A DNA stretch of 64,000 nucleotides from Candidatus Ruthia endofausta (lineage in GTDB: Bacteria; Pseudomonadota; Gammaproteobacteria; PS1; Pseudothioglobaceae): NCBI RefSeq assembly GCF_013342985.1, contig NZ_CP054490.1, positions 744,001 to 808,000 of the forward strand. The letters are read 5' to 3'. The notes beneath the pieces were generated by a model that saw only the letters and a program-made list of their open reading frames with translations, searched no databases and was not told where the DNA came from. The translations under genes and the position numbers were made by a program. Of this stretch, positions 9,240 through 53,990 are shown piece by piece. Positions within the stretch are counted from its first letter, which is position 1, and each line of letters begins with the position of its first letter.

Positions 9240-9418
9240 AAATCGCTATAAATTTTCAAATTTTCAACTAAATAAATTCGTTTATTTTACCCGATTGTTA
9301 GAGGATAGTTAAAAAAATCATAAATCCAAAATCTAGCTTTTATAGAAATTGGAAACGCCTTAATCTTAACTGACATCAGTTATAATAAGGGCACTTTTAT
9401 TATAGATGTATTGCATTA
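9240..9418. promoter_or_regulatory. Divergent infA-metF intergenic region
   Basis: This 179-bp AT-rich spacer separates two divergent genes and must carry both promoters. A TATAAT at 9381-9386 lies 33 bp before the metF ATG and is a candidate -10 box for metF, but no good -35 is seen at the right distance. No riboswitch-like fold was recognised by eye. The reading is weak in such AT-rich DNA. Confidence 0.3.
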
Positions 9419-10240
9419 ATGAAAATCAGTTTTGAGTTTTTTCCGCCTAGAACAAATCAAGGCAAAGAGAAACTAACCCAAGTTAGGCAAAGTTTAAGTG
9501 TGATATCGCCTGAATATTTTTCAACCACTTTTGGCGCAGGTGGCACAACACAAAATGCAACCTTAAAAGCGGTGTTAGATATTCAAAAAAACGGCAACAT
9601 TCCAGCTGCGCCACATCTGTCTTGTATTGGTTCAGAAAAGTCCAACATTGTTGAATTATTAGACAAATACAAATCTGCAAATATTAATCGTATCATTGCA
9701 CTAAGAGGCGATATTCCTTCGGATATGCATGATATTGGCGATTTTCATTATGCCAATGAATTGGTTGAATTTATCCAATCTGAATATAATGACTACTTCC
9801 ATATTCAGGTGGCAGCCTATCCTGAAATGCACCCGCAAGCCAATAATATTGCAAGTGATTTAGCGCACTTTGTTAACAAGATTAAAGCAGGCGCTAATGG
9901 TGCAACTACACAATACTTCTATAATGCTGATGCCTATTTTAGGTTTAGGGATGATGTGCAAAAACTGGGTGTAGATATCCCAATCACACCAGGTATTATG
10001 CCAATTATCAATTACACTCAACTGCTTAACTTTTCTAATATGTGCGGCGCGCAAATTCCAAAGTGGATTTTAGAACGGCTCAAACTTTATGAAACCGACT
10101 TAGAATCACTTGGTGATTTTGGTTTTGATGTTGTCTCCAACTTATGTCAGACACTCAAAAGTCAAGGCGTGGGTAGTTTTCATTTTTATTCAATGAATCG
10201 TACAGAGCCTTCTCTCAAGTTAGCAAAAAGCATTGTGTAA
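9419..10240 (+). CDS. metF: 5,10-methylenetetrahydrofolate reductase
   Basis: The 273-residue FAD enzyme begins ISFEFFPPR, the substrate-site signature, and contains STTFGAGGTTQ, NRIIALRGDIP and the GIMPI segment. It reduces methylene-THF to methyl-THF for methionine synthesis and follows FolD (1-770) in the pathway. Length is slightly short of E. coli MetF (296), mainly at the N-terminus. The start at 9419 sits directly before the conserved motif. It converges with the small ORF at 10241 with no spacer between stop codons, so no terminator separates them. Confidence 0.95.
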   Translation: MKISFEFFPPRTNQGKEKLTQVRQSLSVISPEYFSTTFGAGGTTQNATLKAVLDIQKNGNIPAAPHLSCIGSEKSNIVELLDKYKSANINRIIALRGDIPSDMHDIGDFHYANELVEFIQSEYNDYFHIQVAAYPEMHPQANNIASDLAHFVNKIKAGANGATTQYFYNADAYFRFRDDVQKLGVDIPITPGIMPIINYTQLLNFSNMCGAQIPKWILERLKLYETDLESLGDFGFDVVSNLCQTLKSQGVGSFHFYSMNRTEPSLKLAKSIV

Positions 10241-10635
10241 TTATTTAATTATGGATTTTATTCTTTCAAGGTATATCAAAGAATAAGGCATAGTTTTATC
10301 CTTAGCAACTAAGCGATTATCAACACTCACTATTTGAATGAGTCGCCATCCATTATTATAGAACGCTTCAAAAGTTTCTCTTCTAGTATTAGAGTCAATA
10401 TCACATAATAATTTGCTATTGACACTGGCCAAATGATAATAGGCTGGGGTTTTCTTAACTTTGGTATTTACTGAACAAATTGCCAATTCATATTGAGTTT
10501 TAACTGGGTTTGATTTTTTAATAGTGCTGATTTTTAATGGCTCGTCTTTAGTATCAAAAAACCCTGAAAATGATGAAATAGGAAATAGGAAATAGGAAAT
10601 AAAACCCAAACAGCCAATAATATCTTTTCTATCAT
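10241..10635 (-). pseudogene. Small exported protein, frameshifted at a heptanucleotide repeat
   Basis: A well-spaced ATG at 10635 with an AGGA ribosome site opens a signal-peptide-like start, MIEKILLAVWVLFPIS. The rest of the protein (about 110 codons, from SSFSGFFDTKDEP to LERIKSIIK) is in another frame. The switch lies in a 3.7-copy GAAATAG tandem repeat (10575-10600). With 2.7 or 4.7 copies the two frames join cleanly, so gain or loss of 7-bp units toggles the gene. As written, translation could only start at an internal ATG (10609) that lacks the charged signal-peptide start. The family is not recognised. It may be a true pseudogene or a slipping locus. Confidence 0.6.
10575..10600. repeat. 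Heptanucleotide tandem repeat (GAAATAG, 3.7 copies)
   Basis: Three perfect copies plus five bases of a fourth of a 7-bp unit. As 7 is not a multiple of 3, each slipped unit changes the reading frame of the overlapping small gene. Such repeats expand and contract by replication slippage. Confidence 0.95.
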
Positions 10636-10770
10636 TAGATAATCCTAATAAAAAATAACCTAATTAAAGGCTATTTTCTATAATTTAATAGAGTTTAAAA
10701 AAATTAAAATGCTCAATCAACTACTGAGCCAGCATTATTACCTGAACCTGTCTGAGTAGCTTTAACACTA

Positions 10771-11267
10771 TTAAGTCAAACCATATTCATCATCATGATA
10801 AGAAGCCGCCAATGGCAAGTGAATTCTGAGCATTAAATCTACCAATACTTACCCCTAATTGAACCTTTACCGTTAAAAGTTTGTGGAATACCATCCATTG
10901 CCATACTCATGGCAACACCTTTATTAACTTTGTCTACATGCGTATTGCCATCTGAATTTGTAACCAATAAATTAGCCTGACCTGAATCAACTTCAAGTTT
11001 TTCACTACCAATTGTGAGTGAATCTAATCTGCTTTGCGCTGTGTTTATAGTGGTTTATACATCCGCAGCGGCATTGGCGTTTGCCTGTTCTGCTGCTCTA
11101 GCGATTATTGTTTCGGCATCGAGGTCTGTTTGTTCGACTAGGACTGTGTGTGCCTGTTGTGGTTCCAGTGCCATCAGACCCGGTGGTTGTAACTACTGCT
11201 TGTGAAGTGGTGATTAATAAACCAAGAATTAGTATGAAAAATCTATTAATTTAGCTCTGTTCTTCAT
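10771..11267 (-). pseudogene. YadA-like trimeric autotransporter adhesin, decayed
   Basis: Three minus-strand frames add up to a shrunken surface adhesin. A signal-like start at 11267 continues as ILILGLLITTSQAVVTTTG. Then comes a coiled-coil stretch (LDAETIIARAAEQANANAA), then VDKVNKGVAMSMAMDGIPQ, then a shifted frame GVSIGRFNAQNSLAIG and a last frame ending DDEYGLT. The KGVAMAMAM...GVSIGRFxGQNSLAIG pattern is the YadA C-terminal membrane anchor. There are at least three frameshifts and one stop (a TAA inside the coiled-coil part). It overlaps the end of the next gene by 17 bp. Confidence 0.7.
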
Positions 11268-11694
11268 GGTTTTTAATCCAATGCTGAAGTTTATGTAAGG
11301 GCTCTTTATCTTGAGCGTGGCAACATTTCTCAAGCACATTTAAACGATTTCCCAATTCTTCAAACACCATTACATAATGCTCATTCCTTAACTCTTCTTT
11401 ATAAAGCTTGGATTTAAGCGAGGTGATGATGCTGATTAATTTTTGTTCATTTTCTTGTTTAGCAGTATCAGTTGCACCGGTTTTAAACATGGCATCAGCT
11501 TTGATTTGTTGCATTTTTTGTATGTGTTTATCTTGCTCTGAATGCAAACTTATTTTAGGATAAGCCAGTCTAATGCTGTCCGTTGTCACGTAACCCTCAT
11601 GAGTCTGCAACTTGCCAGAATTGATTTGTGCTTGAATTTGGGTGCGACTTACCCTAAGCTTACGTGCTACTTGTGAAACACTTAATTTAATCAT
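11251..11694 (-). CDS. Small DNA-binding-like protein with N-terminal helix-turn-helix
   Basis: The start is set at the ATG at 11694 because GGAGGGT lies 5 bp upstream; an ATG 12 bp earlier overlaps that ribosome site. The 147-residue protein opens MIKLSVSQVARKLRVSRTQI, a MerR/excisionase-like helix-turn-helix, followed by a long charged segment likely to form a coiled coil (about 60-125, with NEQKLISIITSLKSKLYKEEL). The C-terminus ends CCHAQDKEPLHKLQHWIKNH. The target is unknown. It is the last gene behind hemD on the same strand, 37 bp away. Confidence 0.6.
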   Translation of the reverse strand: MIKLSVSQVARKLRVSRTQIQAQINSGKLQTHEGYVTTDSIRLAYPKISLHSEQDKHIQKMQQIKADAMFKTGATDTAKQENEQKLISIITSLKSKLYKEELRNEHYVMVFEELGNRLNVLEKCCHAQDKEPLHKLQHWIKNHEEQS

Positions 11695-11731: not shown

Positions 11732-12484
11732 CTAACTAGATTTTACTGATTTGTCAAGTGTATTAAGATTTGTTAATACTGAAATAATACCATTATCACT
11801 AGCATTCGGCGTGACCAATACCTTGTCAAACCCAATTGAATTAACATAAGTCTTTATTCTGTCACTTAAAACTACTAATAAATAGTTTTTAAGCTTATTA
11901 ATATCAAGAATTTGGCTGGATATTTCCAGTAGTGATTTCATGCTATCTATGCTAGTAATGCTAATAATACCTTCATTGCTTAATAAAAATTCATTGAGTG
12001 ATTGATAGTGCAGAGAGTTAATATCATGACTCACACGCTCGTACACTTCAACGTATTCAACTTGATTATCTTGCTTAATTAGGCCTTGCTTTAAGGTTTC
12101 TCTACCACCTCTACCTCTACCTCTAAAAATTAAAATTATTTTATGATGCAAGCAATTCACACTATCAAGAGCCAAAAGCGCCTCACTGGAAGCGTTTTCT
12201 CTAGGAAAGTCGTCAATCTTTGTGTCATTCTCGCTTAGTTTTCTGGCGGTAGCACTACCCACTGCAAAAATCTGATGATAACTCATTGTTTTAAGAATTT
12301 TTAAGCCGTGTTCAACAGCATTGGCACTAATAAAAATAACCACATCATAATGACTTTTTTCTGCTTTGGCATCAATAGGATTAAGCTTTAATGTTGGAAA
12401 GAAAAGTGGCTTATTGCCACTTTTAAGCACCATAGATTGTAGTTCTTTTACTTGTAAAAGTGGTCTAGTTAGTAATACATTCAC
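11732..12484 (-). CDS. hemD: Uroporphyrinogen-III synthase
   Basis: The 250-residue protein matches the poorly conserved HemD family: it begins NVLLTRPLLQVKEL (the RP near the N-terminus is typical), has DVVIFISANAVEHG and FAVGSATARKL in the first domain, and GIISITSIDSMKSLL in the second. It cyclises hydroxymethylbilane to uroporphyrinogen III, the branch to heme and siroheme. Siroheme is the cofactor of the DsrAB enzyme encoded nearby, so this gene is needed for sulfur oxidation too. It starts 3 bp after the stop of the upstream unknown gene. Confidence 0.85.
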   Translation of the reverse strand: MNVLLTRPLLQVKELQSMVLKSGNKPLFFPTLKLNPIDAKAEKSHYDVVIFISANAVEHGLKILKTMSYHQIFAVGSATARKLSENDTKIDDFPRENASSEALLALDSVNCLHHKIILIFRGRGRGGRETLKQGLIKQDNQVEYVEVYERVSHDINSLHYQSLNEFLLSNEGIISITSIDSMKSLLEISSQILDINKLKNYLLVVLSDRIKTYVNSIGFDKVLVTPNASDNGIISVLTNLNTLDKSVKSS

Positions 12485-31477: not shown

Positions 31478-32060
31478 TGAAAACTTTACTAGCAATATTA
31501 TTAGGCTTAGCCACACATAGTGTTTGATCAAACAACTGAAACAGTTCTCGAACAAGTGCAATAATTTCTCAACCTACCCCCGCCACAGGCATACTTAATA
31601 ATACGACTTGGAAAGCCCTGGTTTCACCTATGACTAAAACATTTAACACTTAGGCTTTTTCCAATAGAACCTTGCGTGAAAAAATGAGATACTTTGCCAC
31701 TAAACACTTGCAATATAAAGCATCTGAATTGACAGAGGGGAATATTGGGCCGTGGGTTAAAGAATGACCATGATGGCGATTGGACGTACTGGTGTCAAGG
31801 ATTTGTATGTTTTGTATGTACCATTTTAAATCAAACTTTTAGCACTATTGGCGAATATTTTAGTAAATACTATGCCAATACTTGGACAGTTGAAGTTATG
31901 CGCAAAAAAGCACGCATTAAAAAATTATTGGCCCCATCAGCAACTCAAAGATAAAACATCACACCCCACAAGAGGACTAGATTGCGCTGTACATATCCAC
32001 TAAAGATGCTCCCTCCGTGCTCATCACACAGAAATTATCAAGCAATACAAGAAATATCCA
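31478..32060 (+). pseudogene. Exported peptidoglycan-binding / CHAP-like protein, decayed
   Basis: A signal-like start MKTLLAILLGLATHSV is closed at once by TGA. Broken frames continue with TGILNNTTWKALV (PG_binding-like), REKMRYFATKHLQYKASELT, GNIGPWVKE, and GDWTYWCQGFVCFV with YANTWTVEVMRKKA, where the Cys in a WCxGFVxxV setting recalls CHAP/NlpC-type hydrolases. At least four frame changes and several stops are present. The original function is inferred only from these motifs. Confidence 0.45.
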
Positions 32061-52291: not shown

Positions 52292-53990
52292 TTAACCATT
52301 GAATAACAAATCACTAATGTCACACTGTGGCTTAAAGTCTGGCACAAGTTGTATCAATAATGAGCGTAGTTTATCTTGGTCATAATTAGTAATAGCAAGC
52401 TCCATACTGGCTAACACCAACTTTAATTCATCCCAAGAAAGCATATTGTCTTGGGCTTTCATAATCATTGAATGATTAGTGCCTAATGCATTATCATCAA
52501 TCAATAACTCTTCAAAAATCTTTTTCCCTGAACGAAGATCTGTGATTTCAATCTCAATATCTCCGTTTAAATTAGTACTGTCTTTAAGCTCTAATCCAGT
52601 TAAATGAATCATCTTTAAAACTAGATCATAAATTCTAACAGGCTTGCCCATATCAAGCACAAATACATCATCACTAGAACCCATAGCGCCTGCTTGAATA
52701 ACCAATGCCACTGCTTCAGGTATGGTCCATAAAATAACGAATAATTTTCTTATCAGTGACCGTTACTAGCCCACCTGCTTTAATTTGTTTTTTAAACAAA
52801 GGAATCACTAAGCCAGTAAAATCTAACACATTGCCAAATCTCACCATATTAAATCTTGTACCGTTTGATGACTTTGATAGTGCTTGCAATACCATTTCAG
52901 CACTACGTTTAGTAGCGCCCATAGGCATTTGTTGGGCGAACAGCTTCATCGGTGAATATTAGTACAAACGTTTCAACCTTGCTACTAATAGTAGCTTGTG
53001 CGCAACTGAGCGTACCAAAAATGTTGTTCATCACAACACCTTCAGTAGTGATTAGATTCTACCATAGGTACGTGCTTATAAGCTGCTGCATGATAAATTG
53101 TCTACACCTTGAATTGCTTACACACTCTTTCTATTCTATCTTGATTAACCACCGAACCCAATATTGGAAACACCTTAGTGCTATCCTTCAATTCTTTGTC
53201 AATGATACAAAGTTCCAATTCACTTTGTTCAAATAATATTAACTTGGACGCACTGAGACTAATAACTTCTCTACACGGCTCTGAACCAATTGATTCATCA
53301 GCACCTGTAATCATAACAACTTTGTTTTTGATGTTCACCTCAAGCAGGGATTGATTAAGCCTAACAGGCTTTCTACTCAGCAAGTCACCAATACTCACAT
53401 CACGCAAATAATCAACTTTAACCTTGCTTTGCGCAAGTGCAGACACACCCGGCAAAATCCACACAAGAACTGGATGTGGCTCTAACTAGATTGATGATTT
53501 CATTACGCCTTTGACGTGATGCCAAAGATGGTGCTAATAAAATTTCATTGACACTATATCTGTGTATCAATAATTCAATATGTTTGGCGCTATGCACTTT
53601 TACGCCATTAATATGTTGCTTGTTTAAATCCTTCGCATCATCAATAAAAGCAACAGGCTTATACTCTTTTGATTGTAACAACACTTCAGACAACGCCCAT
53701 CTGGCCAACATTCTCAATCCGCCAATTGGCCATGATTGCCATGATTGCCAGCAACCCATTAATAAGTATAACCGACCTTGGAATACCCTCTACAGCAGAC
53801 ATAAAGCCCAAATTGAATAAAAACTGGAATAGCAATCACTGGCACACCAATAGTCACCCAAAAAAGATCACTTTGTGGCTAATGCCAATATCCAAGTCTA
53901 AGAGAAAAGGAAGCTAACAATATACCGACCAGTACAACTGAATCAATTAGTAATACAATTAATTGCTTAATATCTGGGCAAATGTTGTTA
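52292..53990 (-). pseudogene. WbpM/CapD/FlaA1-type nucleotide-sugar dehydratase, decayed
   Basis: Minus-strand pieces in several frames make up a membrane-anchored UDP-sugar 4,6-dehydratase/epimerase. The N-terminal helices IVLLIDSVVLVGILLASFSL (with a TAG after LRLGYWH) are followed by KEYKPVAFIDDAKDLNKQHINGVKV, the Rossmann start VVMITGADESIGSE (normally GAGGSIGSE), FGNVLDFTGLVIPLFKKQI, and the end FVLDMGKPVRIYDL ... SGKKIFEELL. At least four frameshifts. It normally initiates O-antigen or capsule sugar synthesis. A 9-bp direct repeat (ATGATTGCC) lies at about 53734-53751. Confidence 0.88.

Follow-up and report, generated by a model that had tools for sequence, protein, structure and literature searches.

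A heptanucleotide repeat that gained two units has probably made a recent pseudogene in a clam symbiont

Does a short tandem repeat in Candidatus Ruthia endofausta switch a gene for a putative small exported protein on and off, or has its expansion killed that gene? The repeat lies in a 64,000-nt stretch of DNA, here called the window, and an earlier note on the letters of this stretch had read the locus as a possible on/off slippage locus or a mixed population in the host rather than a dead gene. The species is represented here by one genome, a single contig of 1,188,809 bp from the 'Ca. Ruthia' group of vesicomyid clam symbionts. The locus is laid out as follows, in window coordinates:

9419..10240, plus strand: metF (methylenetetrahydrofolate reductase), intact, the convergent neighbour and synteny anchor
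10241..10576, minus strand: rest of the reading frame, open over 111 codons and a stop; identity to the whole ortholog in genome G004, 75%
10534..10635, minus strand: 5' part of the gene, ATG plus leader, running out of frame to a stop after 33 codons
10575..10601, minus strand: 7-bp tandem array, 27 bp, 3.86 copies; unit GAAATAG on the plus strand, TTTCCTA on the coding strand
10643..10646, minus strand: AGGA, ribosome-site-like as read from the sequence, 7 nt upstream of the ATG
10648..10681, minus strand: hairpin with a U-rich stretch after it, immediately 5' of the ribosome site, z = -3.4, perhaps a terminator
10697..11270 (extent estimated), minus strand: ruined gene of a YadA-type trimeric autotransporter adhesin, adjoining upstream

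The ATG at 10635-10633 (minus strand) begins a hydrophobic, signal-peptide-like leader, MIEKILLAVWVLFPIS..., which then enters the array, a 100% match to GAAATAG over all 27 bp. The frame breaks at this array, and the remainder lies in another frame that is open to the stop at 10241. The earlier note had described just this arrangement, a signal-peptide start with a ribosome site (AGGA, 10646-10643) out of frame with an open remainder of about 110 codons, broken within a 7-bp repeat; it stands, the remainder counting 111 codons and the perfect array 3.86 copies instead of 3.7. Its statement that the gene is whole with 2.7 or 4.7 copies did not hold under scripted changes of copy number: one unit more (4.86 copies) does give a whole frame, of 133 codons, one unit less (2.86 copies) gives 24 codons, out of frame, and a whole frame of 126 codons returns with two units fewer (1.86 copies). 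The two counts lie 14 bp apart and therefore cannot share a frame. A tandem repeat within the gene sets the frame through its copy number, as in simple-repeat phase-variable loci. No other perfect array in the window (periods 4-12) reaches both 20 bp and 2.7 copies, none comparable was found in 60 third-order Markov sequences, and the array is a non-chance feature.

Comparison with relatives revealed that leader and remainder are one gene. The larger genome G004 carries it whole, at 127 aa (MIKKLLIVWVLFPVLSFSGFF...) and without any array; the leader of the window gene matches that of this ortholog, and the remainder holds no stop and no second frameshift. In the whole ortholog, about 105 mature residues follow a leader resembling a signal peptide, and the product is probably a small exported protein. 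Searches for function against Pfam, NCBIfam, PADLOC and PDB sequences returned sub-threshold matches or none. DUF4177 (PF13783) was considered and rejected, the C-terminal part of the G004 ortholog reaching E=0.035 and 14.8 bits against a gathering cut-off of 25. That part has a weak likeness to DUF4177, including a strand-helix-strand-strand order in a poor AlphaFold2 model (two-row alignment, pLDDT 51), and differs from an accepted member in that the match lies below the Pfam cut-off. Weak matches to proteins of about 820 aa in other genera ran at 24-28% identity.

The direction of the change can be read from the relatives. G002, the closest in the comparison set, groups with the window genome by metF (support 93/99) and has an array of 13 bp, shorter by 14 bp, exactly two units. 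No relative has an array above 13 bp, and the expanded form occurs in one of the 12 genus genomes. The 13-bp array of the sister G002 is the ancestral state, and the change was thus a gain of 14 bp in the window lineage, a direction polarised by G002, G004, G010 and G003; that the break arose in the repeat, as had been proposed, is thereby borne out as an expansion. With a whole ortholog in G004 and a window frame interrupted by an extra 14 bp, the window copy has the make-up of a pseudogene, and it has company. The G002 copy retains the short array but is marred by added single bases and a deletion inside the gene, the G010 copy has a large internal deletion, the G003 copy has stops and gaps, and in G007, G008, G011 and four genomes of about 1.0 Mb the next conserved gene follows directly after metF, the gene being absent. 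It is broken or absent in 10 of the 11 other genus genomes and dispensable in the group, G004 holding the sole whole copy among the 12. Nowhere among these 12 genomes did we find an otherwise intact gene whose array had been kept and varied in length between relatives. In the metF tree the only groupings to be resolved were G000 with G002, G007 with G010, and the four genomes of about 1.0 Mb, which gives no exact count of independent losses. A trace of the gene adjoining metF at a contig end in G035, from another genus (LATKDKTVPYSLIYLERLKK), suggests that the gene's place is old.

The claim that the rest of the gene shows no other defect stands for stops and frameshifts; six of the ten private single-base changes, however, alter the protein. 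With G004 as outgroup, the window branch of the remainder has four synonymous and six nonsynonymous private changes, two of which turn glycines into acidic residues, and the G002 branch has one and five. For intact neighbour genes the window-branch counts are 19 synonymous and 16 nonsynonymous changes (16/35), and the nonsynonymous excess over them, in this small sample of ten changes, does not reach significance (p=0.33; pooled, 0.09). Against a neutral expectation of 0.75, the share of 6/10 in the same small sample likewise does not reject neutrality.

The expansion has parallels elsewhere in the window. The part aligned with G002 contains 99 indels; setting the 14-bp array gain aside, the window has four strict tandem gains of 4 bp or more and G002 has one. 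An 8-bp tandem duplication at 9250-9267, between an infA-like gene and metF, is single copy in the ten relatives read, and a hemD-like gene has one extra ACCTCT unit (6 bp) at 12107-12125, in frame (GRGRGGR vs GRGGR) and private to the window among relatives that could be read. Both are polarised by several relatives, and with the array they make three private tandem gains of the window lineage within 3 kb of one another. Given these other private gains, the array is most plausibly one outcome of a general tendency to slip. Two 9-bp tandem gains, at 31802-31819 and 53729-53750, were compared with G002 alone.

Searches for mismatch repair genes revealed no match to mutS (TIGR01070) or mutL (TIGR00585) in all 12 genus genomes, with controls working. 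Across the 37 genomes of the family (G000-G036) mutS again had no match in any, and mutL had nothing over the cut-off, with two marginal matches. Most other families of the class carry both genes, and mismatch repair seems to be missing family-wide, beyond the clam symbionts alone; we found no report of this in the literature. Such an absence would raise the slippage rate. In the window's genome recA is intact.

Upstream of the gene, the hairpin at 10648..10681 has similar bases in G002, G004 and G010 and is absent from the list produced by a consensus terminator scan. The adhesin gene beyond it has broken frames in the window, where the fragment itself is without a Pfam match; its G004 counterpart matches YadA_anchor (E=8e-10, Pfam). 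The G004 island with this counterpart (region L027) also has a transposase gene and broken glycosyltransferase-like frames, both named by eye.

Our preferred reading, to which we give a probability of roughly 0.8, is that the gene was inactivated recently when a tandem repeat slipped, in a clam symbiont that is passed on vertically and whose genome is shrinking. The alignment shows that a 13-bp stretch with a 7-bp period had arisen by base changes in the ancestor shared with G002, and that the window lineage then added two units, putatively by replication slippage or tandem duplication. The shift ends translation from the ATG after 33 codons, in a gene that was already dispensable, as its repeated loss in relatives through unrelated lesions shows, and missing mutS and mutL may have let such slips escape repair. 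A recently dead gene is favoured over an on/off switch, since in close relatives the gene has already disappeared or been ruined in other ways.

A switch would mean frequent gain and loss of units, with part of the symbiont population inside the clam making the protein and selection keeping the mechanism, so that a heptanucleotide array of few copies would act as a contingency locus in a vertically transmitted clam symbiont lacking mismatch repair, and only some of the symbiont cells in a gill would make the small exported protein. The perfect array lies inside the leader, one unit gained gives a whole frame, mutS and mutL were not detected, the gene adjoins the remnant of a surface adhesin, and the short tetranucleotide array of S. 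aureus icaC switches without RecA (PMC4117637). The expanded array is nevertheless private to one genome, its ancestral length is not that of an expanded repeat, the whole ortholog has no array, and relatives have been losing the gene, all of which makes a maintained switch unlikely; the array has 3.86 copies only, and as one of several private micro-duplications, the others intergenic or in frame, it points to a general mutation habit. The on/off proposal of the earlier note hence finds little favour here, and we regard it as quite improbable, keeping it in view because the few-copy icaC array slips both ways without RecA and neuO relies on a heptanucleotide repeat within its coding region. 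Nothing physical prevents the array from slipping back, and a small share of cells with the frame restored is conceivable.

A polymorphism without any switch, in which the shifted allele has yet to reach fixation and intact copies persist in some clams or cells, would suit a young copy with no second frameshift or stop, and some supply of length variants is to be expected from slippage without mismatch repair. We judge this reading unlikely: in the one related clam symbiont for which we found an ultra-deep study, the population was largely clonal and confirmed variants did not exceed about 2% (PMC13345212). We hold it to be very unlikely that ribosomes still read the remainder, either by frameshifting or by starting in its frame at a codon other than ATG (e.g. 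TTG at 10609-10607): the remainder's frame is open for 140 codons and the 5' part (IIGCLGFISYFLFPISSF) is still hydrophobic, but the AGGA is positioned for the old ATG, and by eye there is neither a clear ribosome site before the TTG nor a canonical slippery heptamer. Assembly and sequencing errors do arise in repeats, but one is scarcely credible here, where any common read is longer than the 27 bp, the difference amounts to exactly two units and other places in the window show private gains of a similar kind.

As a recent pseudogene, the locus catches gene loss in a symbiont at an early stage, cleanly and with its direction known: a chance 13-bp near-repeat gained two units and killed a gene that is being lost in relatives too. 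It points to tandem-unit gain as a source of pseudogenes in a family without detectable MutS and MutL.

Among known systems, neuO of E. coli K1 has a coding heptanucleotide repeat with demonstrated switching by slipped-strand phase variation (PMC9659370). The window gene shares the 7-bp unit in a coding region whose copy number sets the frame, but has few copies, in one genome, and no sign of maintenance. The short tetranucleotide array of icaC is reversible, being changed in about 9% of S. aureus isolates with reversion observed (PMC4117637); there too a few-copy array breaks the frame by gaining a unit, whereas the gene studied here is dead or gone in nearly all relatives. Also close are the pseudogenes of recA, mutY and uvr genes in vesicomyid clam symbionts under reductive genome evolution, where short repeats are held responsible for RecA-independent change (PMC3202245, PMC5310779). 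The loss proceeds lineage by lineage in both, with small lesions first and differing deletion patterns afterwards (PMC3202245, PMC5310779), but the first visible lesion here is a 14-bp tandem gain instead of a base change or small deletion.
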